Shown here: in pieces, positions 22,478-44,229 of the stretch
Layout of the letters: each line of letters begins with the position of its first letter
How positions within the stretch are numbered: the first letter of the stretch is position 1
Program-made: the position numbers and the translations under genes
The notes under the pieces: generated by a model
Databases searched by the model: none
Seen by the model: only the letters and a program-made list of their open reading frames with translations
What the model was told of the DNA's origin: nothing
Virus record (IMG/VR): IMGVR_UViG_3300025000_000182
Coordinates: 1-44,229 of that record
DNA: 44,229 bases
Strand: one strand, 5' to 3'
Origin: a virus

Positions 22478-22544
22478 TTTTTTACACCCCCGTTACACTA
22501 TATATATAGATACCCCTCATATATATCATGTATTATATTTTTTC

Positions 22545-22689
22545 GGACATGTAAAGTCTTGTTTTATATTTTCGGACATTTTATGTCTTATTTTGCTGTT
22601 CAATATCTTGAATTACTGTTCAATATTTTAAACTACCGCAAGATACTTGCCCGAGTAAGCAGATATCGCAAATCGGACATACCATGTCT
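22545..22689. promoter_or_regulatory. Three operator-like palindromes GGACAT-N3-ATGTCT
   Basis: Sites lie at 22545-22559 (GGACAT GTA AAGTCT), 22574-22588 (GGACAT TTT ATGTCT) and 22675-22689 (GGACAT ACC ATGTCT). Each is an inverted repeat with a 3-base centre, and the first has one half-site mismatch. They lie between the divergent small-terminase and early plus-strand genes. Such spacing suits binding of a dimeric repressor. Candidate binders are the HTH protein at 32670 and the ribbon-helix-helix protein at 23700; which one is unknown. Confidence 0.55.
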
Positions 22690-22712
22690 TATTTCCAATT
22701 CAATATTTTAAA
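22599..22712. repeat. Three AT-rich elements TTCAATATxTTxAA
   Basis: Copies at 22599-22612 (TTCAATATCTTGAA, with perfect TTCAA/TTGAA arms), 22619-22632 and 22699-22712 (both TTCAATATTTTAAA). They alternate with the GGACAT palindromes in the same intergenic region. They may be a second set of binding sites, or part of a composite regulatory unit. No binding protein is known. Confidence 0.5.
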
Positions 22713-22854: not shown

Positions 22855-22872
22855 CCCGGCAATCACGCCGGG
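22855..22872 (+). promoter_or_regulatory. Leader hairpin copy 1 (CCCGGC-AATCAC-GCCGGG)
   Basis: A perfect 6-bp stem with the hexaloop AATCAC, 18 bases before the start codon of the 48-residue gene. The same loop and stem recur before the next two genes. The hairpin lies at the predicted 5' end of the transcript, so it may affect stability or translation of the leader. Confidence 0.6.
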
Positions 22873-22890
22873 TAAAAAAAGGAGAAGATC

Positions 22891-23037
22891 ATGAAAATAT
22901 CAAACATCCAGAATAAACATCGGAAAGGCAAGAATGTTGTTAATTATACAGGCCCGGAGTGTAAATGCGGGAAAGGGTGCAAACCAGGAACCTGCCGGAA
23001 AAACAAAAAATCTTGGGAAGAATCAAAGAATTCTTGA
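22891..23037 (+). CDS. Small Cys-rich basic protein, 48 aa
   Basis: ATG at 22891 follows AAAAAAAGGAGAAGATC, a strong site, and the frame closes with TGA at 23035-23037. The protein is basic (many Lys) and has a cluster CKCGKGCKPGTC, with four Cys in 10 residues, which suits binding of one zinc ion or a small metal-binding fold. It is not a classic zinc ribbon. It is the first gene of a small plus-strand early group, after the candidate promoter at 22822. I do not recognise a family; a small DNA/RNA-binding or host-takeover protein is possible. Confidence 0.65.
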   Translation: MKISNIQNKHRKGKNVVNYTGPECKCGKGCKPGTCRKNKKSWEESKNS

Positions 23038-23079: not shown

Positions 23080-23097
23080 CTGAGGATTGATATTCCA

Positions 23098-23113
23098 CCG
23101 GCAATCACGCCGG
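23098..23113 (+). promoter_or_regulatory. Leader hairpin copy 2 (CCGGC-AATCAC-GCCGG)
   Basis: The same loop AATCAC and 5-bp stem as in copies 1 and 3, upstream of the 145-residue gene. Here the hairpin is intercistronic, 39 bases before the start codon. Confidence 0.6.
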
Positions 23114-23152
23114 AAACCGGCCAAATAGGCCAAAAAATAAAGGAGAAAGGCC

Positions 23153-23628: not shown

Positions 23629-23645
23629 GAGTGAGTGATTAAATA

Positions 23646-23661
23646 CCGGTAATCACGCCGG
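23646..23661 (+). promoter_or_regulatory. Leader hairpin copy 3 (CCGGT-AATCAC-GCCGG)
   Basis: Copy 3 of the repeated hairpin, before the ribbon-helix-helix gene. Compared with copies 1 and 2 the closing C-G pair is changed to T-G, which as RNA would be a U-G wobble. The change keeps RNA pairing, so the element probably acts as RNA. Confidence 0.6.
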
Positions 23662-23699
23662 ATAACGGCCCGGAAGGCCAAATAAAAGGAGAAGAAATC

Positions 23700-23882
23700 A
23701 TGAAAATGGAGATGAGGCAGGATCTGGTGTCGGCGGAGGAAGTCAAATCTTTTACGATCCGGCAGTTACCGGAGAAAACTCACCGCCGGGCAAAAGTAGA
23801 AGCTGCCCGGCAGGGGATCTCTATGCAAGACTTTATCATCAGGGCTATTGAGTTAGCCCTGGAAATAGCCGAAAAATCATAA
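23700..23882 (+). CDS. Ribbon-helix-helix regulator-like protein, 60 aa
   Basis: ATG at 23700 follows AAAAGGAGAAGAAATC. Residues 16-60 fit an Arc/CopG-type ribbon-helix-helix: strand with SFTIRQLPE, then helix KTHRRAKVEAARQ, the turn GIS, and helix MQDFIIRAIELALEIA. Such proteins form dimers that bind DNA palindromes. Here it is the last gene of the small early group, ending beside a strong terminator. The operator-like sites at 22545-22689 are possible targets, but no data link them. Confidence 0.75.
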   Translation: MKMEMRQDLVSAEEVKSFTIRQLPEKTHRRAKVEAARQGISMQDFIIRAIELALEIAEKS

Positions 23883-25363: not shown

Positions 25364-26683
25364 TTATACCCCCATAACAAACATGCCACGTTTAGCGTTA
25401 AATGTAACTTTTGTCTCCACCCCTGTCGCTCCATTCCGATTTTTTGCCAAATTTATTTCTGTGCTGCCCTGATCAGGACTTGCATACGGGTTTTCGATTT
25501 TATCATAATACCCGCCCCGGTACAGGAAAAAAACCATATCCGCATCCTCTTCAATTGCTCCCGTTGCTTTAAGATCAGAGAGCGTAGGGCGTTTATTAAC
25601 ACGCTCCTCAACCTTCCTGCCGATCTGACACAGAAGAACAATCGGAATCCTGAGTTCTTTTTTAAGATCCGCTATCCGGTTGCAGTTTTGCGTAAAACCT
25701 TGATATTCTGTCAGTTTCGGCGGATATTGAATTTTGGACAGCTGATCTATAAAAATAATTTGAGATCCCCTTTTTTTTGCCACACGGCATTTCCGGACCA
25801 CATCTTCAATTTTACACCCTGAATCATCGATATCGATTTGGAGATACGACAGCCGACTACAGGCCGATTCTATTTCCGCAAACGAGGCGGCAGAGAGCCC
25901 ATTTTTGGCATAAAAACACAAAGAATTAACGTCTGCCTCATCGGATAAATATCTATCAGTCAGGGCCTCCTTATCCATTTCCAGGGATAAGATCGTGCTT
26001 TTAACCCCCTGTAAAGCAAGGTGTTTTGATATCGATAACATCAACGCCGTTTTGCCCATGCTCGGGCGGGCGGCAATGATTATCAGCTTGCTGCCTGTGA
26101 TATGCATCGCATTGTTCAAAACCGGGAAACCAAAATTTAACCCGCCCATTTTAGGGTCCGCCTGGGCTGCCTTTATCCTGCCGATCGCATCTGTTACAAG
26201 GCTGTCCATACTCACAAAATCATCTTTTGTGCTCGTTGTTTTTAGAGATAAAATATATTCTTGTGCTTTGGAAACAAACTCTTCCGGATCAACGGTTTTA
26301 TAACCCTCATCGATGATGGACATGCAAGACAAAATAGCTTTCCGGACCGTCGACAAACCCTTAATCCCCTTTGCGTATGCCTTGACATTAGCGGCGATAG
26401 CAGCACAATCAACCATCATCGACAGATGCCCTATCCCGCCGATCAATTTTGCCTGATCTGTGGCTATTAGACGCTGCCCTACCGTAACCAGGTCAACCGG
26501 CTGTTTTTCTACAAACAGGGCCGTCATGACGGAAAAAATTATACCGTGCGCTGGTTTATAAAAATCATCCGGTGTTAATTCTTCTGTGTGTCCAAAGCCG
26601 GAATTATCAATAAGCAGCGCCGTTATCAACGATTCTTCCATTTCAAGATTATTCGGTAACACTCTGTCAATCTGTTTTTTCAT
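25364..26683 (-). CDS. dnaB: Replicative DNA helicase, DnaB type, 439 aa
   Basis: The N-terminal domain (NNLEMEESLITALLID, then PDDFYKPAHGIIF) is the primase-interacting domain of DnaB. The C-terminal RecA-like domain has Walker A ARPSMGKTA (about residues 207-215), Walker B IIFIDQLSKI (about 313) and an arginine-rich finger area near KKRGSQ and RKVEERVNKRP. Length is close to bacterial DnaB. It starts with an ATGA overlap on the initiator stop. It would unwind DNA at the fork together with host polymerase; I see no phage polymerase in this window. Confidence 0.9.
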   Translation of the reverse strand: MKKQIDRVLPNNLEMEESLITALLIDNSGFGHTEELTPDDFYKPAHGIIFSVMTALFVEKQPVDLVTVGQRLIATDQAKLIGGIGHLSMMVDCAAIAANVKAYAKGIKGLSTVRKAILSCMSIIDEGYKTVDPEEFVSKAQEYILSLKTTSTKDDFVSMDSLVTDAIGRIKAAQADPKMGGLNFGFPVLNNAMHITGSKLIIIAARPSMGKTALMLSISKHLALQGVKSTILSLEMDKEALTDRYLSDEADVNSLCFYAKNGLSAASFAEIESACSRLSYLQIDIDDSGCKIEDVVRKCRVAKKRGSQIIFIDQLSKIQYPPKLTEYQGFTQNCNRIADLKKELRIPIVLLCQIGRKVEERVNKRPTLSDLKATGAIEEDADMVFFLYRGGYYDKIENPYASPDQGSTEINLAKNRNGATGVETKVTFNAKRGMFVMGV

Positions 26684-27495
26684 GATAAGAAATCCGCTAT
26701 TCTTTGCTCGTCGGTTTGTGTTTGAGATGGTTGGTATGCTTTTGCTTTGTGTTCATCTTTGAACCAATTTGCGACCATCTTTTGCTTCCAGTTTTTGATG
26801 GCATTTCCCCTTGAATCATGCCAATCGCCGGTATTATAGTATTTAAAAGCTTTTTCCGCTGTAGATTTTAAATACCCGTTTTCGATAAAATAATTAACGA
26901 CCTCATCAACGGACGGCGGTATGAATTTTTTAGACGGGGCAGGTTTTCTTAGGGGGGGGATTTCTTTTTCTTTTTCTTTTTCTTTTTCTTTTTCTTTTTC
27001 TTTATTCTTATAATTCTTAACATTCTTCTCATTCTTGTTTATATAAGAAGGTTCACTACCGGTCCGTTCGTTGGTCCGTTCGTTGGTCCGTTCGTTGGTC
27101 CGTTCGTAGTTTTCTGGTGTCTGGAAAAAGCTATAATTAATGATAGTTATAAGAGTCCCGTGAGGTCCGTTCGTTAGGTCGATCATACGTTCGTTCATTA
27201 GTCCGTTCATTGCTCTCTTCGTTGCGCTCTCATTGTAACGCTCAGTCCGGTATCCAATTTTCCAGGACAAAGCCTCTCTGATTTCCGCGTACGTCCTGAT
27301 CAATTGCCCTCGCTTGACAACAAAACCGTTTCTCTTGACATCTACATGGTTGGCCTCCCGGAGGAGATAATCCCATATCTCCCGCGCAATAGGTTGTGCG
27401 TGAGATATCCAACTGTTTTTAATCGTTCTCGCTTTGATGTAATAGCCGCCAGGGATAACCCCGGTTCGAGTTAAAGATATTTGCCGTTCTTCCAT
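26680..27495 (-). CDS. Replication initiator / DnaD-like protein, 271 aa
   Basis: I choose ATG 27495, preceded by AGGTGAT; a TTG two codons upstream is also in frame. The N-terminal 110 residues look like a winged-helix domain (ISHAQPIAREIWDYLLREANHVD, then RGQLIRTYAEIREALSW). Then come low-complexity repeats ERTN and KE, and a C-terminal DnaD-like helical domain (VDEVVNYFIENGYLKSTAEKAFKYYNTGDW, then NWKQKMVANWF). This arrangement is like phage initiators that load DnaB at the origin. The gene lies directly upstream of dnaB. Two repeat elements within it may form the origin. Confidence 0.75.
   Translation of the reverse strand: MEERQISLTRTGVIPGGYYIKARTIKNSWISHAQPIAREIWDYLLREANHVDVKRNGFVVKRGQLIRTYAEIREALSWKIGYRTERYNESATKRAMNGLMNERMIDLTNGPHGTLITIINYSFFQTPENYERTNERTNERTNERTGSEPSYINKNEKNVKNYKNKEKEKEKEKEKEKEIPPLRKPAPSKKFIPPSVDEVVNYFIENGYLKSTAEKAFKYYNTGDWHDSRGNAIKNWKQKMVANWFKDEHKAKAYQPSQTQTDEQRIADFLS
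26961..27003 (-). repeat. Hexanucleotide polypyrimidine run in the initiator gene
   Basis: About seven tandem copies of a TTTTTC-type 6-base unit on the plus strand, coding alternating Lys and Glu on the minus strand. Because the unit is 6 bases, slippage keeps the frame. A perfect polypurine-polypyrimidine run next to the iteron block may serve as an easily melted region. Confidence 0.8.
27061..27175. repeat. Iteron-like 12-bp repeats in the initiator gene (candidate origin)
   Basis: GGTCCGTTCGTT occurs as four tandem copies at 27061-27108 (the last differs in its final base), and again as an exact copy at 27164-27175. Further partial copies lie around 27185-27211. The tandem copies encode Glu-Arg-Thr-Asn; the exact copy at 27164 is read in a different frame (Thr-Asn-Gly). 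Selection on the DNA rather than on the peptide is therefore likely. Iterons within the initiator gene followed by an AT-rich run are the layout of lambda ori within O. Confidence 0.65.
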
Positions 27496-27530
27496 TCGCA
27501 ATCACCTATATATACCACCGTCAAATTTTT

Positions 27531-27574: not shown

Positions 27575-30136
27575 CTACATTCCTGATTCCGAAACAATAC
27601 CGCCCTTCTGAAACAGGAGCGAGTGATCGGCCATGGCCTGGCACTCCGGAATATGAGAAATGAAAAACAGCTTTTCAAAATGCCCCTGAACCATCAAGGC
27701 CCGGTACATCTGGATAAACCGCTCTGCTTTTTCTTTATCCAGGGCTCCGGATTCTTCATCTGCAAAGCAGGTGGCAAAATGAATACCGGATTTTTCGGTA
27801 TTGACCAGGATCTGAGCGGCTTTGAACGCTTGTAATATCCAAACCGATTCCCCTCCTGAAAAGTCACAAAGTGAATATGATTGCCCATCTCCACGGGTGA
27901 TCATAATATCCAGGACTTCCGCACCCGTTTCCGGGTCCTGAGTGATCAGGTCCAAATAAAATTCCCCCCCATATGCCGCATGGAGGAGGTCATTTGCAAT
28001 ACCGGTCAAAAGGGGAGCTGCCGCCGAAATTTCAAGGGCTTGCAATCCGGATTTTGAAACAGCATCCCGGACATATGCCCATTTTCCAATTTCTTCACGG
28101 ATAAACGATTCTCGCAGTTTTAACCGGGTTATTTCTTCGATGTCTTTTTTCGCTGCCATTGCCTTATCTTCAAGGACAGCAATCGTTTTTTCGATATCAG
28201 AAACAACCTGTATCGATACTTTTAGGGATAACTGAGCAATCCGGATGCCTTGTTCTGTAATATCAATATCGATATTGATATTTTCTTGCGTCCTGGCCGG
28301 TGTGGACATTATCACATCTAATGATAGGGGTGCGGCTTCTGATTCAAGTTTCACGATCTTTGTCCTAAAATCAAAATCTCTTGATGCGAATGCCTGATTT
28401 CTTTCCTCAATAGATGTTTGTAATAAGGCTATTTTTTGTTCTGCTAAATCCATTTCTGATTTTTTCATAGATAGGATTTCGAGCCGGGAAATTTTTTCCG
28501 GAATTACTGACTGTTTTAATTTGAGTTCCGTATAACCAGACAACAGAGAGTCTTTCCTCTTTTCAAGCTTTGTCATTTCGGTCAAAAGCTCGGTCTCTTT
28601 TTTATTCAAATCCTTCCTTTTTTGGTCGCTCTCGGCCGTAAGGGTGTCTTTCTCACAAGCCACTGATTTAATAGTCATCACGGCCTTATTAAGAGAGGCG
28701 AATATTTCTTCTTTTTCATGTTCGGCAGCTAAAATCAGCCCCTTGTTTTTTTCAATAGCATCAGCTATTTCTTTTTCCTTCGCAGGCTTCATGCCTATTT
28801 TATCAAACGCATTTTTGATAAACGGACAGGCATCAATTCCACAACCATCCGGGCGGAGAGCCAATAAGGATTCCGCAGCTTTAAATTGTTCAAGGTCTTT
28901 TCGCAGGGCTTTAATTACCGGGTCATCCCCCAGGGCTGCAAGTTTGATATTAATGTCTGCAATTTTCCGTTCCGTTTCACTTTTATCGACATTGAGCAAT
29001 TTTGTATACTCGACAATCCCCTTGAGTACCGGATCATTATCTAACCCGATCCGATCCGATTTTAGATTTACGAGAGCAAGATATATATCTGAGAGTTTTT
29101 CTTTATTAACTGTAGCTTCAATTGATACCGCCTCTATATCAGCCGCAAGGGTGGATTCTTCTTTCATGAGTTCGGCAATCGTCCGTTCCGCAGAAAGAAT
29201 TTCTTCTTTCTGATCTACCAGGCTTTGCAGGGGAAAAATTTCTTCCTCTTTTGAATCAATCCAGTCGTTATGTTTCCGGCTGGATTCTAACATCTCCGCC
29301 TTGAGAACAACAATCTGATCCGCAATTGCAGAAAGCTGCTTCCTTTTTTCAGTCAAAACAGCTTCTTGTTTTTGTACTTCTGCGGATTCTCTTTGGAGTG
29401 TGGCCAATTCTTCCTGACCCAAAGATACCTTCTTTTCTCCCTCAGAAATTTCCGCCTTTTTAACATCAAAGGACGCTCTGTTTTCCGCCAATGATGTTGC
29501 ATTCCTGGAAATTTCATCTTCCCTGGCTGAATAATATTCCAGATCCCGAATAACTTCCGAGAGCGCCCCCTCACATTCTTTGATACAAGCCCCGGCATTG
29601 TGCCAGTATGTGGTGTATTTTTCAAGACCCAGGAGTTCAATCAAAAGCTGCTTGAACTCTCCGGTCTTGAGATCTGTAAGCTTTTTTCCGCCCTGGCAGC
29701 TAAAAATGGACGAATAGAAAAGGTCCTCTGAACCAAATAGTTCAGACACCTTCTTTTTATATTCGCTGATTTTTCCCTTAACGACAGGCACACCGTCGCA
29801 ATAAATATAACCTTCCGGTGACATGGTTGTTCCTGCCGGGATCTCAACCCGGAAAACATATTTTTTCCCTTGAAAGAGATAGCAAACTTCTTTATAGCTA
29901 TCCCGAAGCCGGAACTGCTTTTTGAAATTGTACTTTTGAGGGTTTTTCTGTTGCCTGGATGGGAATACTGGGAACGGAGAAAGCAGCTCCATGAATGTCG
30001 TTTTCCCCTGTCCATTATTCCCAGCCAGGTTAATCAGGCCAGAAAGATTTTCAAAGTTTACAGCGATCTCATCAACTCCGAGACCATAGTGAATGCCAAA
30101 ACTTCCTTTCACTTTTATATATTGCAAATTTGCCAT
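27575..30136 (-). CDS. sbcC: SbcC/Rad50-like ATPase, 853 aa
   Basis: The N-terminal ATPase part has Walker A GNNGQGKTT (39-47). Long coiled coils follow (many Glu/Lys/Leu heptads between about 170 and 700), broken near 430 by CGIDAC, a Cys-pair hook that is wider than the usual CxxC. The C-terminal lobe holds the signature SGGES (near 760), Walker B with FADEESGALD (near 793) and the H-loop FFISHIPE. The start ATG overlaps the SbcD-like stop. With the SbcD-like nuclease it probably processes DNA ends for recombination-dependent replication, as T4 gp46/47 do. Confidence 0.9.
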   Translation of the reverse strand: MANLQYIKVKGSFGIHYGLGVDEIAVNFENLSGLINLAGNNGQGKTTFMELLSPFPVFPSRQQKNPQKYNFKKQFRLRDSYKEVCYLFQGKKYVFRVEIPAGTTMSPEGYIYCDGVPVVKGKISEYKKKVSELFGSEDLFYSSIFSCQGGKKLTDLKTGEFKQLLIELLGLEKYTTYWHNAGACIKECEGALSEVIRDLEYYSAREDEISRNATSLAENRASFDVKKAEISEGEKKVSLGQEELATLQRESAEVQKQEAVLTEKRKQLSAIADQIVVLKAEMLESSRKHNDWIDSKEEEIFPLQSLVDQKEEILSAERTIAELMKEESTLAADIEAVSIEATVNKEKLSDIYLALVNLKSDRIGLDNDPVLKGIVEYTKLLNVDKSETERKIADINIKLAALGDDPVIKALRKDLEQFKAAESLLALRPDGCGIDACPFIKNAFDKIGMKPAKEKEIADAIEKNKGLILAAEHEKEEIFASLNKAVMTIKSVACEKDTLTAESDQKRKDLNKKETELLTEMTKLEKRKDSLLSGYTELKLKQSVIPEKISRLEILSMKKSEMDLAEQKIALLQTSIEERNQAFASRDFDFRTKIVKLESEAAPLSLDVIMSTPARTQENINIDIDITEQGIRIAQLSLKVSIQVVSDIEKTIAVLEDKAMAAKKDIEEITRLKLRESFIREEIGKWAYVRDAVSKSGLQALEISAAAPLLTGIANDLLHAAYGGEFYLDLITQDPETGAEVLDIMITRGDGQSYSLCDFSGGESVWILQAFKAAQILVNTEKSGIHFATCFADEESGALDKEKAERFIQMYRALMVQGHFEKLFFISHIPECQAMADHSLLFQKGGIVSESGM

Positions 30137-31470
30137 TATTCCACCTCTCTTTCTTTCTCAATTCCGTTAACGATTTGTGCCGGTTTGTCCTGATTAAGCC
30201 GTGTTTGACAGTGTTTAACCAGGTCAGCAAGGTTAAGATTCTCTAAGTTTTCAAACAGATCTAAAACCCCTTCCGGGACCGGTTGACTTCTGTGGTTTGC
30301 GAGCGCTCGGACCTTATCTATCAGCGACACCGCCTTGATAATCCCCTCGTCCCTTGAATTTTCCCGCCGCACCCGGTCAATTTCCAAGATAACATTATCT
30401 GCACCGGCTTCTTTGATCGCCTGTTTCAGGGCGGATTGATTTATTCTCCTAATATCGTCTATCCAGAGTGTGATTTTTACCTTTGCCCAGTATCCTGGTT
30501 TCTCCTGGCCGCCGCTGTCGAGGATGTCAGAAACAACAGTCTGGATAAACTCCCTGTCCAGGATCGCTGGATCAGAGACACAATTATAATTGACCTGAAT
30601 CATTTCCCGGGTGGGGGTCTGGATGAACTCATGCCGGTCGGGTTCGTTGTCATCGCAGATATCATGTATGTAAAAGCCCTTGGCTTGGCCCTGCTCTCCA
30701 AAATCTTTCCGGAAAATTGATCCGGCGTGGAATGCTTTTTTCCCGGATGGCATGTCATAACCCTGAACCATGTGTATATGGCCCAGGAGGCATATATTCG
30801 CCTGAGCCATAGAAAGAGTTTCGGTATCAATAGCAATGTCCGTACCGGGGAGGGTTTGCGTTTCTGAAATTTTTGATCCCTTCATTGAAAAATGGCCGTT
30901 CAGGACGTGCGGTACTCGTGGAAATTGTTTTGCTGCCTGCCCGAACCCGGCAAAGATGGAACCCATGGCCTGGGCGATGTTCTGATTATCAGCTTCTATC
31001 CCCTGTCGGTTTTTCCAGAATTCTTTTGTTGGGGCTGGAATTTGTGTTACGGCAAGGATTATCTGCCCGGACGGGACGTATGTATCCTTAACCCATTCAT
31101 AGGCAATTTTGTCCCGATTTCTTTCAAATTGCCGGAGATAAATTTGCTCCGGTTTTGTGCTGACATAAATTGGGTTTTTCCCGGAAACATATTTCAAAAT
31201 CTCCGGTGTCTGTCCGTCGTGGCTTGGGGTCCCGACCACAACGGCAACCGGTGCGATATTTGATAGCCGTCTGAACTGATCGGCTATCGTTTTTGCTGAT
31301 TTGGTGTCAGTTCCAAGATATTGGCTGTTCGTCACGTCCCCGGAGCAAATGATCACATCCGGGCGTTTCTGTTCGGCCACGCCGATCATATATTCCATGC
31401 AGTTTTTTATTTCATCATGATTCTTTTCCTCATAATGCACGTCTGCAAAATGCAAAATGCTTGCTCCCAT
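30136..31470 (-). CDS. sbcD: SbcD/Mre11-like nuclease subunit, 444 aa
   Basis: A calcineurin-like phosphoesterase. Metal-binding motifs are seen in order: FADVHY (8-13), GDVTNS (44-49), GTPSHD (80-85, where most relatives have GNHD), NGHFS (191-195) and GHIHM (230-234). The C-terminal part is helical and may bind the SbcC coiled coil. Start and stop both lie in TAATG overlaps, so it is tightly coupled to its neighbours. The missing Asn in the GNHD box is odd, since that Asn is usually a metal ligand; the His and Asp are kept. Confidence 0.85.
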   Translation of the reverse strand: MGASILHFADVHYEEKNHDEIKNCMEYMIGVAEQKRPDVIICSGDVTNSQYLGTDTKSAKTIADQFRRLSNIAPVAVVVGTPSHDGQTPEILKYVSGKNPIYVSTKPEQIYLRQFERNRDKIAYEWVKDTYVPSGQIILAVTQIPAPTKEFWKNRQGIEADNQNIAQAMGSIFAGFGQAAKQFPRVPHVLNGHFSMKGSKISETQTLPGTDIAIDTETLSMAQANICLLGHIHMVQGYDMPSGKKAFHAGSIFRKDFGEQGQAKGFYIHDICDDNEPDRHEFIQTPTREMIQVNYNCVSDPAILDREFIQTVVSDILDSGGQEKPGYWAKVKITLWIDDIRRINQSALKQAIKEAGADNVILEIDRVRRENSRDEGIIKAVSLIDKVRALANHRSQPVPEGVLDLFENLENLNLADLVKHCQTRLNQDKPAQIVNGIEKEREVE

Positions 31471-32986: not shown

Positions 32987-33679
32987 ATGAAGAAGAACAC
33001 AGTTTATGTTGAAGGTGTGGGGTATGTTGATATTAGAATAACAACGCTGCATGCCAATTCTGCGGAGTCAATACCGGCAACGCTGGTTAATCTCACCCGG
33101 CTGTCCGCCAATTCTGCGAAGAAAATCCCGGCAACACTGGTGAATCTCACCTGGCTGCATGCCAATTCTGCCAAGATAATCCCAGAAACCTTGGTGAATC
33201 TCACAACACTGTATGCCGATTCTGCGGAGGTAATCCAGGCAACGCTGGTGAACCTCACCCGGCTATCTGCCGATTCTGCGAAGGTAATCCCGGGCACACT
33301 GGTGAATCTCACAGAGTTGTATGCCCATTCAGCTAAGAAAATCCCGGCTGAATTGGTGAGTCTCACCTGGCTGTATGCCAATTCAGCTAAGAAAATCCCG
33401 GCTGAATTGGTTAATCTCACCCGGCTATCCGCCAATTCTGCGAAGAAAATCCCGGCAACACTGGTGAATCTCACCTGGCTGCATGCCAATTCTGCCAAGA
33501 TAATCCCAGAAACCTTGGTGAATCTCACAACACTGTATGCCGATTCTGCGGAGGTAATCCAGGCAACGCTGGTGAACCTCACCTGGCTATCTGCCGATTC
33601 TGCGGAGTCAATCCCGGCTGAATTGGTGAACCTCAAAACGCTGTATGCCGATTCGGCCAAATCTAAAAAGGAGAAGTAA
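32987..33679 (+). CDS. Leucine-rich solenoid protein 1, 230 aa
   Basis: Strong AAGGAG site before ATG. After a 22-residue N-terminal cap (MKKNTVYVEGVGYVDIRITTLH), eleven 18-residue repeats follow, of the form A[DHN]SA[KE]xIPxTLVNLTxLx (DNA 33053-33646), then a short Lys-rich tail (ADSAKSKKEK). The tail is encoded by sequence that also carries the ribosome site of the next gene. Repeats 2-4 recur as repeats 8-10. The repeat periodicity suits an LRR-like beta-solenoid; a binding function is likely, but the ligand is unknown. Confidence 0.75.
   Translation: MKKNTVYVEGVGYVDIRITTLHANSAESIPATLVNLTRLSANSAKKIPATLVNLTWLHANSAKIIPETLVNLTTLYADSAEVIQATLVNLTRLSADSAKVIPGTLVNLTELYAHSAKKIPAELVSLTWLYANSAKKIPAELVNLTRLSANSAKKIPATLVNLTWLHANSAKIIPETLVNLTTLYADSAEVIQATLVNLTWLSADSAESIPAELVNLKTLYADSAKSKKEK
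33053..33646 (+). repeat. Eleven 54-bp coding repeats (solenoid gene 1)
   Basis: Unit length 54 bp. A block of three units (around 33107-33268) recurs 324 bp downstream, six units away, nearly unchanged. Confidence 0.85.
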
Positions 33680-33853
33680 ATGAAAAAAGCTATGAAAGTG
33701 TTGCCCGCAATTTGGATCGTGACCGGAATCATTTTAGTGACAGGTGAGGCAAATGACGCTAAAAGCCAGTTGCTATTAGCCGTCATCGGCGTGATGGTGG
33801 CGTGTGTCGGCGGGTATTGGTTTTCTTATCTCTGTGAGAGAGATGATGAGTAA
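33680..33853 (+). CDS. Two-span membrane protein, 57 aa
   Basis: ATG at 33680 follows directly after the solenoid-gene stop, with an AAGGAG site. Two hydrophobic stretches (VLPAIWIVTGIILVTG and LLLAVIGVMVACVGGYWF) are joined by a short polar loop (EANDAKSQ), so an inner membrane hairpin is likely. The C-terminus is acidic (CERDDE). It overlaps the helicase gene by 11 bases. No family is known; it may anchor a neighbour or affect the membrane. Confidence 0.6.
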   Translation: MKKAMKVLPAIWIVTGIILVTGEANDAKSQLLLAVIGVMVACVGGYWFSYLCERDDE

Positions 33854-35534
33854 AAAGCTCAGGCAACATCAATGGCAACTGAACCAGGTCATTGATGGTA
33901 TTATTAACCGGCACCCCAAATATGCGGGTGTCAAAAGGATTATTTTGTCCGTTGTGCCGGGCGGGGGGAAAGGCTCAGTCCCGGTGAATGCGGGGAAATT
34001 GATCAAGGCGGGACTGGCCGATAGAATTTGTTGTATCGTGCCACGTAAATCTTTGCAAACTCAGTGTGAAGAAGTCTGCATGGATACCTTCTTTCAGCAG
34101 CTTTTCGAGACAAAAATATCTCTCAGGGCGTCAACGAATGATTGGAACCCCTGCCGTGGACTGCATGGGTTTGTCACGACATACCAGGCCCTGGGACATG
34201 ACAAGAACGGGTTTGTAGTTGATGCGGTCAAGGATCGGCGGACAATCGTTATCCTGGATGAGTTTCACCATGTCGAAGAGGACAGTCCATGGCATAAAGC
34301 AGTTGCCCAAATTATCGAAGCGGCAACTTTTGTGATCATGATGTCCGGGACCCTGTCCAGGGCGAACAAAAAAAAGATTGCTATCGTGGAATACCGGAAT
34401 GGATATGTTGACCTGTCAGGAGACGCCAATACTCATGTTATCCGGTATTCCAGGACTGACGCACTCAGAGAACAAGCGGTACTCCCAATTGTTTTCCACC
34501 TGCACGACGGATCTTTTTCTTGGAAGGAGTTTGACAGGGAAAAGGTCCATTCAGTTGACAGTTTCAAGGCTGTGAAAAAAACTGACCGGGCAAGCGCATT
34601 GTTTACGGCGCTGCAAACTGAATTTGCAGATCAGTTGATCGATCAGTCGTTGGCCCATTGGTTGGAGACAAAAAAGAATCAACCAGGGGCCAAGATTCTC
34701 TTCGTGTGTGCCAGGATCGGAGATGCAAAGAGATGTATTGAACACTTGAAAGGGCTTGGTATCCCTGCACTCCTGGCAACCAGTCACGAGTCAGATGCTT
34801 GCGCCAAAAATATTGCTGCTTTTAAGGGCAAAGCTCCAGTATTGGTCACGATCGCTGTGGCCTATGAGGGCCTTGATGTCCCGCCGATTTCTCATGTGTG
34901 TGTCTTAACCCGGATCAGGTCAGCAGAATGGCTGGAACAATGCGTCTCTCGTGCTACCAGATGGGATCGTGCCAGCGGAATGTACCGGGATCAGCAAGCC
35001 CATATTTTTGCGCCCAGAGATCAGGCATTTATGGAATTTGTTGGGATTATTGAAAAAGAACAAGTAACCCGTGCCTTACCAGTAGAGAAAAGGGAAGAAC
35101 AGCTTGACCTTTTCTCTCTCCCAGACGGAGAATCAGGAGGAGGCGCACAGCGTGGACCCTGCATCCCTCTGCGGTCTGAGATTTTAGCCCTCAGCAAAAA
35201 AATCTTGGGTGGGAACGAGTCTTCACCCTGGGAACCGGTTGTTAACACTCCCCGGCAGGAAGAACACTTAATCCGAAGGGATATCGACCGATACTTAAAA
35301 CGGTATGCAAGGGAAAATGGCTATGAGATCCATCAGGTCAATAAGGATGTCAGAGCCAGAATATCCATAACGCCCAGGGCAGAAATGACAATGCCTGAAC
35401 TTAAACACCTTTTTACCAGGATAAAAGATATGTACCCCATGGATAGCGGGTCACTTATCCTGGTGTCACATTGTCCGCCCGTTCCGGTTGTTGCAGCCAG
35501 GCCGTTTGATTTAATGGAAGAAAAATTCTTTTAA
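33843..35534 (+). CDS. Superfamily 2 helicase, 563 aa
   Basis: Motif I is VVPGGGKGS (about 37-45; a Ser variant of GKT), motif Ia lies in VPRKSLQTQ, motif II is DEFHH (139-143), motif III is SGT (168-170), motif V is near TIAVAYEGLDVP and motif VI is QCVSRATRWDR (about 366). The order and spacing fit an SF2 DEAD/H-like helicase. The C-terminal 130 residues are unassigned. I place the start at the first of two ATG codons (33843), where only a weak purine site exists; the second lies three bases later. It probably acts in DNA replication or repair. Confidence 0.8.
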   Translation: MMSKKLRQHQWQLNQVIDGIINRHPKYAGVKRIILSVVPGGGKGSVPVNAGKLIKAGLADRICCIVPRKSLQTQCEEVCMDTFFQQLFETKISLRASTNDWNPCRGLHGFVTTYQALGHDKNGFVVDAVKDRRTIVILDEFHHVEEDSPWHKAVAQIIEAATFVIMMSGTLSRANKKKIAIVEYRNGYVDLSGDANTHVIRYSRTDALREQAVLPIVFHLHDGSFSWKEFDREKVHSVDSFKAVKKTDRASALFTALQTEFADQLIDQSLAHWLETKKNQPGAKILFVCARIGDAKRCIEHLKGLGIPALLATSHESDACAKNIAAFKGKAPVLVTIAVAYEGLDVPPISHVCVLTRIRSAEWLEQCVSRATRWDRASGMYRDQQAHIFAPRDQAFMEFVGIIEKEQVTRALPVEKREEQLDLFSLPDGESGGGAQRGPCIPLRSEILALSKKILGGNESSPWEPVVNTPRQEEHLIRRDIDRYLKRYARENGYEIHQVNKDVRARISITPRAEMTMPELKHLFTRIKDMYPMDSGSLILVSHCPPVPVVAARPFDLMEEKFF

Positions 35535-35551
35535 AGAGGGGGATTGTGTCC

Positions 35552-35896
35552 ATGCCTGAAGTCATAGCAATAAATTCAAAGAGTTCGGCCGATGATATCG
35601 AGATACAGGCATTCGACCGGCAGACCCGAAGCGTTTTATGCACACCGCCGTACAGCAAAATTGACCCAGGGCAGGTCATCCCTTCTTTATTGATCCTCTC
35701 AAGGTCTGAAGCGCAGTCATTAATGGATACCCTTTATGATTGTGGTTTGCGGCCCAATACTTCGACCGATGATCTATCGATTTTCCAGGGGATGGCGTTG
35801 CATGATGAAATTGAGATAAAGCCTGGCGTTTATGTAATGAAGGTCCCGAATGGATTTATTTATCAATTCCGGACAAACTTGCAATTCGTTCCGTAA
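35552..35896 (+). CDS. Hypothetical protein, 114 aa
   Basis: I choose ATG 35552, 11 bases after an AGAGGGGG site; a GTG two codons upstream is equally possible. The protein is soluble, with an N-terminal beta-rich part (IEIQAFDRQTRSVLCTPP), a helical middle (PSLLILSRSEAQSLMDTLYDCGLRP), and a C-terminal strand pair (VYVMKVPNGFIYQFRTN). The end overlaps the 96-bp duplicated sequence that leads into the second solenoid gene. No family is recognised. Confidence 0.6.
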   Translation: MPEVIAINSKSSADDIEIQAFDRQTRSVLCTPPYSKIDPGQVIPSLLILSRSEAQSLMDTLYDCGLRPNTSTDDLSIFQGMALHDEIEIKPGVYVMKVPNGFIYQFRTNLQFVP

Positions 35897-35959
35897 ATAT
35901 AAGGAGGAAAAAATGAAAAAGGTTTATGTTGAGGGTGTTGGTGATGTCGATGTTAGAAT
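35864..35959 (+). repeat. 96-bp duplicated leader, copy 1
   Basis: Identical to 36637-36732, starting at CAATTCCGGACA. It contains the end of the 114-residue gene, the AAGGAGG ribosome site and the start of solenoid gene 2. A 42-bp partial third copy lies at 37734-37775. Confidence 0.9.
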
Positions 35960-36689
35960 AACAACGCTGCATGCCAATTCAGCCAAAGAGATCCCGGACA
36001 CACTGATTAACCTCAAGTGGCTATCTGCCACTTCAGCGGAGGCAATTCCGGACACGCTGGTGAATCTCACAACGCTGTATGCCCATTCAGCCAAAGAGAT
36101 CCCGGACACACTGATTAATCTCATATATCTGTCAGCAGATTCAGCCAAGGCAATTCCGGACACGCTGGTGAATCTCACAGAGTTGTCCGCAGATTCTGCC
36201 AAGGCAATTCCGGACACACTGATTAACCTCACAGAGTTGTCCGCAGATTCTGCCAAGGCAATCCCGGACACGCTGATTAATCTCATATATCTGTCCGCCC
36301 ATTCAGCGGAGGCAATCCCGGACACGCTGGTGAATCTCACCCGGCTGTATGCCCATTCAGCCAAAGAGATCCCTGACACGCTGATTAACCTCAAGTGGCT
36401 ATCTGCCAATTCAGCTGAGGCAATTCCGGACACGCTGGTGAATCTCACGACGCTGTATGCCCATTCAGCTGAGGCAATCCCGGACACGCTGGTGAATCTC
36501 ACGACGCTGTCCGCAGATTCAGCTGAGGCAATTCCGGACACGCTGATTAATCTCAAGTGGCTATCTGCCCATTCAGCCAAGGCAATCCCGGACACGCTGA
36601 TTAACCTCAAGTGGCTATCTGCCCATTCAGCCAAGGCAATTCCGGACAAACTTGCAATTCGTTCCGTAAATATAAGGAGGAAAAAATGA
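35913..36689 (+). CDS. Leucine-rich solenoid protein 2, 258 aa
   Basis: Starts with MKKVYVEGVGDVDVRITTLH, then 12 repeats of 18 residues (35973-36620) and a tail IPDKLAIRSVNIRRKK. The variable part of each repeat is one of a few sets (TT, TE, TR, KW or IY before Leu, then Ser, Tyr or His). Each set keeps its own codons, so modules were moved as blocks. The tail is the translated duplicated leader of the next gene. It shares the ATGA overlap with the start of the third solenoid gene. The function is unknown; a protein- or ligand-binding scaffold is likely. Confidence 0.75.
   Translation: MKKVYVEGVGDVDVRITTLHANSAKEIPDTLINLKWLSATSAEAIPDTLVNLTTLYAHSAKEIPDTLINLIYLSADSAKAIPDTLVNLTELSADSAKAIPDTLINLTELSADSAKAIPDTLINLIYLSAHSAEAIPDTLVNLTRLYAHSAKEIPDTLINLKWLSANSAEAIPDTLVNLTTLYAHSAEAIPDTLVNLTTLSADSAEAIPDTLINLKWLSAHSAKAIPDTLINLKWLSAHSAKAIPDKLAIRSVNIRRKK
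35973..36620 (+). repeat. Twelve 54-bp coding repeats (solenoid gene 2)
   Basis: Unit 54 bp. The variable blocks keep fixed codons, for example the Lys-Trp-Leu-Ser type always reads aagtggctatct. Confidence 0.85.
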
Positions 36690-36732
36690 AAAAGGTTTAT
36701 GTTGAGGGTGTTGGTGATGTCGATGTTAGAAT
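36637..36732 (+). repeat. 96-bp duplicated leader, copy 2
   Basis: Identical to 35864-35959. It fuses the end of solenoid gene 2 to the start of gene 3. The first 12 bases (CAATTCCGGACA) also occur in many 54-bp repeats, where they are followed by CGCTG instead of AACTTG. A crossover at this 12-bp microhomology would produce exactly this tandem arrangement. Confidence 0.9.
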
Positions 36733-37783
36733 CACGACGCTGTATGCCCATTCAGCGGAGGCAATTCCGGACACACTGATTAACCTCACAGAGTTGTATG
36801 CCCATTCAGCGGAGGCAATTCCGGACACGCTGGTGAATCTCACCCGGCTGCATGCCCGTTCAGCCAAAGAGATCCCGGACACACTGGTGAACCTCACGAC
36901 GCTGTCCGCCCATTCAGCGGAGGCAATCCCGGACACGCTGGTGAATCTCACGACGCTGTATGCCCATTCAGCGGAGGCAATTCCGGACACACTGATTAAC
37001 CTCACAGAGTTGTATGCCCATTCAGCGGAGGCAATTCCGGACACGCTGGTGAATCTCACCCGGCTGCATGCCCGTTCAGCCAAAGAGATCCCGGACACAC
37101 TGGTGAACCTCACGACGCTGTCCGCCCATTCAGCGGAGGCAATCCCGGACACGCTGGTGAATCTCACGACGCTGTATGCCCATTCAGCGGAGGCAATTCC
37201 GGACACACTGATTAACCTCACAGAGTTGTATGCCCATTCAGCGGAGGCAATTCCGGACACGCTGGTGAATCTCACCCGGCTGCATGCCCGTTCAGCCAAA
37301 GAGATCCCGGACACGCTGGTGAATCTCATATATCTGTCAGCTAATTCAGCGGAGGCAATTCCGGACACGCTGATTAATCTTAAGTGGCTATCTGCCCATT
37401 CAGCGGAGGCAATCCCGGACACGCTGATTAACCTCAAGTGGCTATCTGCCCATTCAGCGGAGGCAATTCCGGACACGCTGATTAACCTCACAGAGTTGTC
37501 CGCAGATTCTGCCAAGGCAATTCCGGACACGCTGATTAATCTCATATATCTGTCAGCTAATTCAGCGGAGGCAATTCCGGACACACTGGTGAATCTCACC
37601 CGGCTGTATGCCCATTCAGCCAAAGAGATCCCGGACACGCTGGTGAATCTCATATATCTGTCAGCTAATTCAGCGGAGGCAATTCCGGACACGCTGATTA
37701 ACCTCAAGTGGCTATCTGCCCATTCAGCGGAGGCAATTCCGGACAAACTTGCAATTCGTTCCGTAAATATAAGGAATAAATAA
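36686..37783 (+). CDS. Leucine-rich solenoid protein 3, 365 aa
   Basis: Same N-terminal cap as protein 2, then 18 repeats of 18 residues (36746-37717) and the same type of tail (IPDKLAIRSVNIRNK). A four-repeat block (216 bp, with TELY, TRLH, TTLS and TTLY modules) occurs three times in a row from about 36740. This is the largest and apparently most recently expanded of the three. Its last bases again contain the duplicated-leader scar (37734-37775). The function is unknown. A rigid LRR-like binding protein is the best guess. Confidence 0.75.
   Translation: MKKVYVEGVGDVDVRITTLYAHSAEAIPDTLINLTELYAHSAEAIPDTLVNLTRLHARSAKEIPDTLVNLTTLSAHSAEAIPDTLVNLTTLYAHSAEAIPDTLINLTELYAHSAEAIPDTLVNLTRLHARSAKEIPDTLVNLTTLSAHSAEAIPDTLVNLTTLYAHSAEAIPDTLINLTELYAHSAEAIPDTLVNLTRLHARSAKEIPDTLVNLIYLSANSAEAIPDTLINLKWLSAHSAEAIPDTLINLKWLSAHSAEAIPDTLINLTELSADSAKAIPDTLINLIYLSANSAEAIPDTLVNLTRLYAHSAKEIPDTLVNLIYLSANSAEAIPDTLINLKWLSAHSAEAIPDKLAIRSVNIRNK
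36746..37717 (+). repeat. Eighteen 54-bp coding repeats with a 216-bp higher-order unit
   Basis: The 216-bp block recurs near 36746, 36962 and 37178 with almost no differences. The blocks are longer than typical read overlaps of short-read assembly, so the copy number may be under- or overestimated. Confidence 0.85.
37734..37775 (+). repeat. Partial third copy of the duplicated leader
   Basis: Matches 35864-35905 over 42 bases and then diverges, in a stretch where the ribosome site AAGGAGG is changed to AAGGAATAAA. It is probably the remainder of a further lost tandem copy. Confidence 0.8.
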
Positions 37784-38747: not shown

Positions 38748-39251
38748 TTATGTAAAACCTTTATATGTTTCTTGCGCCCCTGCTGCCTGCAGGAGCATCC
38801 GGAAAATTCCCGGGGAGACAACAGCCGGGTTGATCTGATCCCATCCCATGAAAGCGCATAGGGGTGTGACCATCTCTTCCGAACAAAATGTTTTATCCGG
38901 ATTATCAGATCCTTTCAAGCCAAAGTTAAGGATGCCGCCCCAATCATATTCTTTTCTCTTTGCCGCCGATTCCCGGTAAAAATTCATCACAAAATCATAA
39001 CATTCAGGGGAAACCACCAATGACCAAATTGAGTATGGGGTCCCGGGTGTGTGTCCTGAATAATCGGAATAATCCATCCAGGATTTTACTCCACCATCGT
39101 GAGGCCATTGTTCGATCAACTGTTTGTCCGACATCCTTTCTCGGTCCATGACCGCAGAATGGGAATCATTATCCCTTGTAAATTTTTGGATGATCCTGGA
39201 AACAAATCCTATCCCCTGGAACTGGACATACTCAAGAGATCTTGGTATCAT
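38748..39251 (-). CDS. Permuted NlpC/P60 (YiiX-like) papain-fold protein, 167 aa
   Basis: I place the start at ATG 39251, after TTGTGGGGATGTGAAA, just beyond the small membrane-gene stop; an upstream ATG at 39290 lies within that gene. The order of catalytic residues is His (SHSAVMD, His 31) followed by Cys (TFCSEEMV, Cys 123), as in circularly permuted NlpC/P60 proteins. These cleave peptide or ester bonds, in some cases in lipids or cell wall. Here it is the last gene of the lysis cassette, so a cell-envelope role is likely. The target cannot be read from the sequence. Confidence 0.65.
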   Translation of the reverse strand: MIPRSLEYVQFQGIGFVSRIIQKFTRDNDSHSAVMDRERMSDKQLIEQWPHDGGVKSWMDYSDYSGHTPGTPYSIWSLVVSPECYDFVMNFYRESAAKRKEYDWGGILNFGLKGSDNPDKTFCSEEMVTPLCAFMGWDQINPAVVSPGIFRMLLQAAGAQETYKGFT

Positions 39252-41387: not shown

Positions 41388-43286
41388 TTATACCCTTACC
41401 AATGTAACTGAGCCTTCATCCCCTGTGGTGTAAGCCTCAGCACTAAAATTTCCAAGTCCTACTTCAATATAGTCTCCTGCATTAAGAACAATAGATTGTA
41501 CTCCAGTGAGATACATTCCAATATCAGCCGGGTTATCAACCATTGTAATAGACTGGGAAGCACCAGCTCCATTCACTCGATAAGCAAGGAATCTGTAGCT
41601 CTGTACCGTACCATTGTTCGTAGGACATTTCCCAGTTAATAGGTACGTCCCAGTAGCAGGTGCGGTTAGTCTCGTTGGGTTCGTTGTGTTATCATGGAAG
41701 TTATGAGAGTCGGCCTGCTCTGATACAAAGCTGAAATATGTTGTGGCAAATCCAGGCGCCACTGATAAATCAGCAGGAATATTTAAGGTCGTAGCACAAA
41801 GAACCCTGCTTATCATCGTCCAGTTCGCAGCTTCAGTTGCATTGAACGTTGTACCTGTTGTCCTGGTTGAATTAGACCGCATTGTATCACCAATAGCAAA
41901 TTGACCAGCACTTACAGTTGCTCGTCTAATTTCATTGGCCAGGACAATTGTGCTACCTGCCCAATCATACTCCGTTATCATCGCCGGGGCATATACGCTT
42001 TCGTGGAACTCTATACGAGAAAGCCCAACATTACCTCCCTCATCTACGATATCCCACAATCTATAATAGAGATATGCTGTGGTGTTCATGAAATCGAACG
42101 TTTGGGTGGTTACGCCAAGAGTTACTGTTTGCGATGTGAGCGATGTCCATATAACACCATCATTTGAACCCTCAATCCTCCATTGTGTTATACGTTCTAC
42201 TGTACCTCCCCGCCCACGGAGAACAGCCCTTGTACAAATTTTTGGAACTGCGAATTGCATACGTATCCAACGATTTACATTGGCTGTACTCCCCGTTCCG
42301 AGCACTGCCCAAGATTCCGCATCATTGTTATTCACCGCCCTCCATGCTGCATATACACTGCTAAATTCTGAACTAGCAAGTAGTGTGTAAAGCTCGCCAC
42401 CAGATGTAAGCGTATTCGCAGTGAAATTAACTGGGTGCGCAAGGAAAGGTGTTTTGGTGAGCGCCTTCTCGTGGACTCTCTGTGTTGTTACTTCATTGGC
42501 AGTTACTACCGACGTGTTTGCTTTGCCTATTGCTGCATCATTCCATAACATAGCCTCAGCTGCATTGAATGTAGCTCCTGTGGTCCTTAATGAAGGGCTG
42601 CTTATCAGTTGCCCAACTACGAATCCGCCAACTGCAACTGTTGCAGTCCTGAATTCATTTGCACGGACAAGTGTTGTAGCAGCCCAAGGTAAGGCATTTG
42701 CACTCTGGACGATCACAGCATTCAATTCAGCCTGGGTGACCTCAGAGGTTTTCTTAGCCCTTACCCATCCATCCGCATCGGCATAAATCTGAACAGATGA
42801 ATTAACCGGTATTGTGACAAGAGTACCAGTTCCACCTATATCATTGGTTACATCTGCATCAAGCGAGAGTCCACCATTGAACCCGGCTATTGTAACCGGA
42901 ATTGCAATCGCTGTATCATTATATAATTCAACTGTTAAAATATTCGGTGCTGTTGCACTCCAAGCTGCAACGGCCATTGTCACGGATGTAACTCCCGTGT
43001 TAATATGTACCTCTGCGGTCTTGTGTAATGCGCTTGTTATTGGGACAGCACCCGTCCCGGTTAATTGGATCTTAACAAGGGATGCCGCAAGTATCGTCTG
43101 AATAGACGCTTCTGTAACCGGCATTGATGGCGTGGACCCGGCAGCACCAGAATTCATTAATGTGCCCTTGTTAACACCATCCGTTATCTCAATCTGATGA
43201 CCATCTAACGATTGACCAAGCGTTCCAAATGCCTCTGCCTGAGTCATTCTTACCACTGTACTTACTCCCTCACCCTTCATGTGCAT
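41388..43286 (-). CDS. Tail fibre protein with discoidin- and C1q-like parts, 632 aa
   Basis: The start is ATG 43286, two codons before another in-frame ATG, after AGGAGATGCAC. N-terminal 184 residues are shared with the fused form at 1-674. Two related segments (VRANEFRTATVAVGGFVVGQ and VLANEIRRATVSAGQFAIGD, followed by RTTGxTFNAxEA) form an internal repeat. Between them lies a F5/8C discoidin-like domain (about 290-430), with AAWRAVNNNDAESWAV, WIRMQFAV, and RITQWRIEGSNDG. The last 120 residues look like a C1q/TNF-type jelly roll (ATGTYLLTGKCP, then AGDYIEVGLGN). All fit carbohydrate-binding fibre tips. Confidence 0.75.
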   Translation of the reverse strand: MHMKGEGVSTVVRMTQAEAFGTLGQSLDGHQIEITDGVNKGTLMNSGAAGSTPSMPVTEASIQTILAASLVKIQLTGTGAVPITSALHKTAEVHINTGVTSVTMAVAAWSATAPNILTVELYNDTAIAIPVTIAGFNGGLSLDADVTNDIGGTGTLVTIPVNSSVQIYADADGWVRAKKTSEVTQAELNAVIVQSANALPWAATTLVRANEFRTATVAVGGFVVGQLISSPSLRTTGATFNAAEAMLWNDAAIGKANTSVVTANEVTTQRVHEKALTKTPFLAHPVNFTANTLTSGGELYTLLASSEFSSVYAAWRAVNNNDAESWAVLGTGSTANVNRWIRMQFAVPKICTRAVLRGRGGTVERITQWRIEGSNDGVIWTSLTSQTVTLGVTTQTFDFMNTTAYLYYRLWDIVDEGGNVGLSRIEFHESVYAPAMITEYDWAGSTIVLANEIRRATVSAGQFAIGDTMRSNSTRTTGTTFNATEAANWTMISRVLCATTLNIPADLSVAPGFATTYFSFVSEQADSHNFHDNTTNPTRLTAPATGTYLLTGKCPTNNGTVQSYRFLAYRVNGAGASQSITMVDNPADIGMYLTGVQSIVLNAGDYIEVGLGNFSAEAYTTGDEGSVTLVRV

Positions 43287-43289
43287 CTC

Positions 43290-43397
43290 CTATTTATAAA
43301 ATATTAATGCAAAAATTAAAGAACTTACTGCGAACACAATTGCAGTGTACACAATAATCACATCAACCGTTATCTTATCAGTCCATCTGCGGTTCAT
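43290..43397 (-). CDS. Small membrane protein, second copy, 35 aa
   Basis: The same gene as at 678-785, seen again because the contig overlaps itself. It starts within the end of the 96-residue gene and ends 4 bases before the fibre gene start. Function unknown; one membrane span. Confidence 0.6.
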   Translation of the reverse strand: MNRRWTDKITVDVIIVYTAIVFAVSSLIFALIFYK

Positions 43398-43668
43398 AAT
43401 TCTCCTCTGTAAAAATGTATTTAACCGGAACTATTTCAATTCCAGTCTCTTCTGTACCTAACTTTATCTCTGAGAAATATTGAAGTGTATCCAAGGAAGT
43501 ACATTTGCTGTCAGTATCATCTGTACTCATAAATTGTACGTTCCAGGTTGTTTCTGTCTGGCCCATGCAAGAAAAACTTACCGGTCCACAAAGGGCTTCA
43601 ATTGCCTTATGGATCTCAAATGATTTAGAAGTCCATTGATCTTTATTAAATTGAAATGTGGCTATCAT
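43378..43668 (-). CDS. Hypothetical protein, second copy, 96 aa
   Basis: Identical to the gene at 766-1056 and part of the terminal duplication. Only one copy exists in the circular map. Confidence 0.65.
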   Translation of the reverse strand: MIATFQFNKDQWTSKSFEIHKAIEALCGPVSFSCMGQTETTWNVQFMSTDDTDSKCTSLDTLQYFSEIKLGTEETGIEIVPVKYIFTEENYEPQMD

Positions 43669-43676
43669 ATTATCCT

Positions 43677-44229
43677 TTAAAGGTTAGGAGTAATCGCTAC
43701 ACCTTTAGTTACTGTCAAAGTTGTAAATGCTGCATCCGAAGCAGACGTCCTTGCGGCATTCGGGGAAGAGATATTGATACTCTTCTCTGTTACCCAAGTT
43801 GCAACATTGGCCAGATCAATCAATAACTGGTCAATTTCACTGGCTGTTAAACCATACCCTGCACCAGGAATAAAATAAACCCGCCTCATATTATTAGCCC
43901 ATGTGCGAGTTGTGTATCCTGTAACTGTTATTAAACTACCACTGCAATAAAAGTAAGTCATAACAGCAGGTATAGAACTTAAATTCCCTGTAATTTCCAT
44001 GAGATTGCCATTGCAAGTAAAGTAAGTCATAACAGCAGGTATAGAACTTAAATTCCCAGTGATTTCCACAAGATTGCCACTGCAAATAAAGGTAGTCATA
44101 ACAGCAGGCATAGAACTTAAATTCCCAGTGATTCTCTGGAGATTGCCACTGCAATAAAAGTAAGTCATAACAGCAGGTATAGAACTTAAATTCCCTGTAA
44201 TTTCCATGAGATTGCCATTGCAAGTAAAG
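43677..44229 (-). CDS. Partial copy of the repeat-containing tail gene
   Basis: This is the 3' part of the tail gene described at 1065-2630, cut by the window end. It covers the C-terminal segment and just over four of the 23-residue repeats. It is not a separate gene: the sequence equals 1065-1617. Confidence 0.85.
   Translation of the reverse strand, partial: FTCNGNLMEITGNLSSIPAVMTYFYCSGNLQRITGNLSSMPAVMTTFICSGNLVEITGNLSSIPAVMTYFTCNGNLMEITGNLSSIPAVMTYFYCSGSLITVTGYTTRTWANNMRRVYFIPGAGYGLTASEIDQLLIDLANVATWVTEKSINISSPNAARTSASDAAFTTLTVTKGVAITPNL

Follow-up and report, generated by a model that had tools for sequence, protein, structure and literature searches.

A probable replication origin within the initiator gene of an uncultured phage

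Where does DNA replication begin in an uncultured phage whose DnaD-like initiator gene contains direct 12-bp repeats, and do these repeats have a role as DNA or only as codons? The initial annotation had placed a candidate origin inside this gene, by analogy with lambda. We analyzed the whole 44,229-nucleotide stretch (the window), a single IMG/VR virus record, together with related initiators. The segment at 26960-27211 is very probably the phage replication origin, lying inside the gene of its own initiator, whose product would bind it and recruit DnaB. Computed support comes from the identity of the gene, its repeats, a weak duplex, DNA-level constraint in relatives and a disordered protein linker. 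The segment thereby offers a candidate start site for a complete 42.6-kb phage.

Genome and replication genes

The ends of the record match each other, positions 42730-44229 being 99.93% identical to 118-1617 (1500 bp), which indicates that the genome is a closed circle of about 42,612 bp. The initiator gene (26680..27495, minus strand, 271 aa) matched PHROG 2514, 'DnaD-like helicase loader', with an E-value of 4.9e-19. Its start is likely the ATG at 27495, which has a ribosome-binding-like AGGTG site at 27503-27507; the TTG at 27501, used as the start in the listed open reading frame, is a less likely choice. The gene directly downstream (25364..26683, minus strand) overlaps the initiator stop codon and encodes a DnaB-type replicative helicase (Pfam DnaB_C, E 8e-58; DnaB, E 1e-22). 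Directly upstream, profile matches identified SbcC-like and SbcD-like nuclease genes (27575-31470), and these flank the replication genes together with a Holliday-junction resolvase-like gene. A scan of genome contigs gave a single relative, which matched in the C-terminal domain, and identified no host.

GC skew had been suggested as a way of locating the start. After detrending, its minimum lies near 21870 and its maximum near 38869, and the proposed origin at about 27 kb is not indicated. Because skew tracks gene strand in this genome, it is uninformative for the origin.

Searches of Pfam (E 0.01) and NCBIfam with the initiator protein assigned no family, the PDB sequence search with its profile gave generic wHTH proteins only, with DnaD at E 0.37, and Foldseek with the structure model returned no match at E<=0.001. 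A single-sequence PDB match to a Rubisco accumulation factor was discarded, as it covers mainly the charged low-complexity linker. The AlphaFold2 model contains two confidently folded domains separated by a linker (about residues 132-185) that is predicted to be disordered. The winged-helix DNA-binding domain (residues 23-131; 27103..27429, minus strand) has pLDDT values mostly above 90 and wHTH matches in the PDB. It aligned with RepA chains 4pql, 4pt7, 4pta and 5kbj over 99-108 residues at Z 7.3-8.0, scores that generic winged helices tie; plasmid RepA N-terminal domains gave the longest structural alignments in this match list.

The C-terminal helical domain (residues 190-252; 26740..26928, minus strand) was likewise modeled with confidence and is common to Flavobacterium phage replication proteins, with which it is shared at about 57% and which have unrelated N-terminal domains. 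We propose it as a candidate helicase-recruiting module. A Toprim and/or DnaB-type primase-helicase gene comes next in four of the seven C-terminal relatives scanned (L007, L008, L011, L013), and in annotated Flavobacterium phages a primase-helicase-type gene likewise lies downstream of the relative with this domain. Out-of-frame linker repeats also occur in C-terminal relatives L007, L008, L010, L013 and L019. Fusions of the C-terminal domain to several unrelated N-terminal domains were seen in L006-L014, L018, L019, L030 and L134; the partners include DUF6291, Lin1244_N, DUF1376 and others, often with linker repeats of the lineage's own.

Iterons in the initiator gene

The repeats form two clusters on the minus strand. 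Cluster II (27061..27108) consists of three tandem copies of AACGAACGGACC followed by TACGAACGGACC. The exact copies start at 27061, 27073 and 27085, and the fourth (GGTCCGTTCGTA, 27097-27108) matches at 11 of 12 positions, giving 3.9 copies in total; the four tandem repeats of the initial annotation are thus present as an array, of which three are exact. On the coding strand the unit AACGAACGGACC is asymmetric and reads Asn-Glu-Arg-Thr in this cluster. Beyond a repeat-free spacer of 55 bp (27109..27163, minus strand) lies cluster I (27164..27211, minus strand), made up of four units in a 12-bp register. The unit at 27164-27175 is the exact fifth copy that had been described 55 bases away and in another frame, and those at 27176, 27188 and 27200 have six, three and two mismatches, respectively. 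Cluster I falls within the codons for the recognition helix and wing, where the reading frame differs from that of cluster II. The last core of cluster I and the first core of cluster II are 67 bp apart, a distance found unchanged in at least eight relatives. No further exact copy of the 12-bp unit occurs anywhere in the genome, and copies with up to two mismatches are limited to lone sites at 4917, 37873 and 40480.

A period-12 exact run of such length was obtained in none of 20,000 codon resamplings, which alone proves nothing because simple slippage could generate such a run. Given the protein and the codon usage of the genome, the unit has a probability of about 0.005 of recurring exactly in another frame. 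Taken by itself, this genome did not reach significance in the general out-of-frame repeat test (2/60 and 6/100 shuffles). Since the 12-bp step keeps the reading frame, the repeats of this genome are only suggestive on their own, and the initial statement that the out-of-frame copy cannot be explained by protein selection was too strong for this genome by itself.

Iterons in related phages

Initiators related to that of the window were collected from IMG/VR scans and phage records, and 60 with less than 70% identity were retained. Contig L005, 100% identical over 6.8 kb, adds no variation. The check for iterons in the initiator genes of relatives, proposed with the initial annotation, gave a positive answer: the repeats are lineage-specific in their units, lie at the equivalent position directly past the winged helix and are mostly out of frame. 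Out-of-frame DNA repeats exceeded the synonymous-shuffle expectation (p<=0.01) in 38 of the 60 initiators, which are not mutually independent, versus 3 of 109 neighbour genes of similar size. About one third of relatives have no significant out-of-frame repeat, which counts against the origin reading.

The predominant repeat step in relatives is 11 bp, with 516 five-base matches versus 77 expected (z 41); steps of 22, 23 and 12 bp are also raised, while those of 9-10 bp are not. Repeat pairs of 6-mers are direct in 1487 cases and inverted in 16. Because an 11-bp step shifts the frame with every copy, protein selection cannot maintain the repeats of these relatives, and here the initial claim about protein selection is borne out. 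Within the subclade of the window the unit varies among phages and the core ACGAA is kept, tiling the wing codons and the linker; it occurs 112 times versus 68 +/- 6 in shuffles, both core and subclade having been selected after the sequences had been inspected. No enrichment was seen for the reverse complement of this core. A DnaB, DnaC or primase-helicase gene lies downstream of the initiator in at least 20 of the 60 winged-helix relatives.

Weak duplex and AAGAAT element

The proposed DNA-unwinding element (about 26960..27059) adjoins the iterons and contains the least stable 60- and 100-bp windows of the circular genome, which start at 26960 and 26959, respectively. It contains a 43-bp run that is homopurine on the coding strand (26961..27003, minus strand), the sole run of at least 20 in the genome and exactly the polypyrimidine run of 43 bases that had been pointed out initially. 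It also contains four copies of AAGAAT at 9-bp steps (27004..27036, minus strand), the counterpart of an AAGAATG element in relatives. There, AAGAATG was counted 104 times versus 32 +/- 5 expected, and AAGAAT follows the iterons, 50-150 nt past the winged helix, in 26 of the 27 genes in which this could be tested. Lys codons that precede Asn in the AAGAAT region of relatives are AAG rather than its synonym by 134 to 31, a preference that is reversed elsewhere. For 39 of the 60 relatives, this linker ranks within the 2% of the locus with the lowest stability. The AAGAATG element is a candidate single-strand site for opening or helicase loading. No description of it was found in the open-access literature by searches in which the motif itself was not a term.

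Constraint on the DNA is also visible in synonymous positions. When relatives carry the same amino acid, identity at four-fold codons is 0.30 in the first part of the wHTH and 0.34 at the C-terminus, and it reaches 0.43 in cluster I (0.60 in the subclade), 0.51 in the linker and 0.48 in the unwinding element (the next ~20 codons). Comparison of the 60 relatives thus shows, at the level of sequence, that letters of the putative origin region are kept for DNA reasons beyond protein coding.

Another AT-rich stretch occurs at about 22490-22700, in an intergenic region with divergent genes on either side; it carries a 29-bp repeat and about three operator-like CGGACAT...ATGTCT sites.

Comparison with known origins

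The initial annotation had likened the layout to lambda ori within gene O. With lambda ori as a control, the order of iterons followed by a purine-rich AT tract is the same, although the protein is no homologue of lambda O. Lambdoid O genes contain iterons and an AT tract, and where iterons are added the protein becomes longer (PMC7466680). In both phages the central part of the initiator gene contains four iterons with a purine-rich AT tract after them, and the gene that follows functions in helicase loading. The iterons of lambda are 18 bp long with inverted symmetry (PMC7466680), whereas those of the window are 12 bp, asymmetric and arranged head-to-tail, with a second cluster in the codons of the DNA-binding domain. 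Membership in the lambda O family was rejected on sequence, as no relationship was found and the PHROG matches are DnaD-like loaders; the iterons, moreover, are not inverted repeats.

A closer precedent than lambda O is the replisome organizer of the Lactococcus phages Tuc2009 and TP901-1. Rep2009 of Tuc2009 and ORF13 of TP901-1 bind repeats internal to their own genes that act as ori (PMC8965321), and Tuc2009 orf16 is annotated as 'contains origin of replication'. Like these proteins, for which binding is known, the initiator studied here is of the DnaD-like winged-helix type with gene-internal direct repeats, and it fits this class in having a gene for a replicative helicase or loader next to it. 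It differs in the repeat sequence and the C-terminal domain, and its gene is immediately followed by that of DnaB. The Tuc2009 rep linker was examined for AAGAATG, and the element was not seen there.

RepA_N plasmid initiators show a similar organization. RepA of pSK41 binds to boxes midway along rep and does not need its central segment, and in plasmid pPR9 a phage-like N-terminus and the origin have been exchanged together (PMC5703833). A winged-helix N-terminus, a linker-encoded origin mid rep and exchangeable modules are thus common ground with pSK41 (PMC5703833); in contrast to those plasmids, this is a phage, its protein has no Pfam RepA_N match and its sites step by one helical turn. 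Membership was rejected on sequence, the window protein having no Pfam match and RepA_N (PF06970) occurring in 0 of 46 aligned proteins. B. subtilis DnaD, for which a single-strand recognition element is described (PMC10201434), has a related wHTH fold class and a strand-asymmetric unwinding region but, unlike the role proposed here, it is not an iteron-binding initiator. With Tuc2009/TP901-1, lambda O and the RepA_N plasmids as precedents, the proposed origin is of an already known design. Less familiar are the one-turn step as a general feature, the location of sites within codons of the winged helix, and the AAGAATG element common to relatives.

Proposed mechanism and alternative explanations

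In the mechanism that we propose, winged helices of the initiator would bind head-to-tail, one per helical turn, to the direct 12-bp repeats of clusters I and II with their ACGAA core. The resulting nucleoprotein filament would strain and melt the adjoining purine-rich, AT-rich DNA at 26960-27059. The C-terminal domain would then bring in the DnaB helicase from the neighbouring gene, upon which theta replication could begin. The repeats are translated as a disordered linker and are therefore tolerated by the protein. An origin inside the initiator gene, as first annotated, is thus supported by the PHROG 2514 and DnaB identities, the iterons of relatives, synonymous conservation and the weakest duplex, and remains a candidate derived from sequence.

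In one alternative, the array is just a NERT peptide repeat that slippage expanded within a disordered linker and has no DNA role, and the KEKEKE run is likewise a charged linker. The tandem array is indeed in frame and inside the disordered linker, one relative (L233) has a similar NERT run, and this genome gives a weak result in the general out-of-frame test. We nevertheless regard this as very unlikely in view of the exact out-of-frame copy (P 0.005), the 11-bp step of relatives that alters the frame at every copy, their conserved synonymous sites and the position of the genome's weakest duplex beside the repeats. The initiator could also bind the repeats to control its own expression or copy number, with replication starting at another place such as the AT-rich intergenic region at 22490-22700, which has repeats of its own. 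The instability of 22494-22593 almost equals that of the proposed unwinding element, and this second AT-rich repeat stretch, with its 29-bp repeat and operator-like sites, counts against the origin reading. Yet the iterons lie well within the gene, away from its start, the 22.5-kb sites resemble inverted-repeat operators between divergent genes, and known proteins of the same type have gene-internal repeats as ori (PMC8965321), so that regulation alone seems highly improbable.

A further possibility, which we consider real though doubtful, is that the gene-internal repeats serve as an early theta origin only, with recombination-dependent or rolling-circle replication from other sites taking over later for the bulk of the DNA. 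The SbcC/SbcD-like and Holliday-junction resolvase-like genes around the replication genes would fit such a switch; our analysis gave no evidence of a second start site, and this scheme would refine the gene-internal origin and is compatible with it.

Taking the gene-internal origin further, the chances appear about even that a portable composite origin within the coding sequence is common to DnaD-like phage initiators of many lineages. Its asymmetric one-turn sites would extend from codons of the winged helix into the linker, and the conserved purine-rich AAGAATG would follow at a set position, serving as a site of strand-specific unwinding or loading. The DNA-binding domain and origin would be exchanged as one cassette, leaving the C-terminal helicase-recruiting module in place. 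For uncharacterised phages the gene-internal origin suggests a rule for finding origins: direct repeats of 11-12 bp past the winged-helix codons of the initiator, then a weak purine-rich stretch.

Other repeats in the genome

Arrays of 54-bp repeats (18 aa, LRR-like) with up to 18 copies occupy 33046-37749 and are largely open on both strands. Close to the record junction, a minus-strand gene contains 69-bp (23-aa) tandem repeats at 1327-1910 and 43939-44229. At 22855-22900, 23090-23150 and 23640-23700, near-identical leaders precede three small plus-strand genes, each leader with a hairpin-like CGG-AATCACG-CCG motif and an AAAGGAG site.
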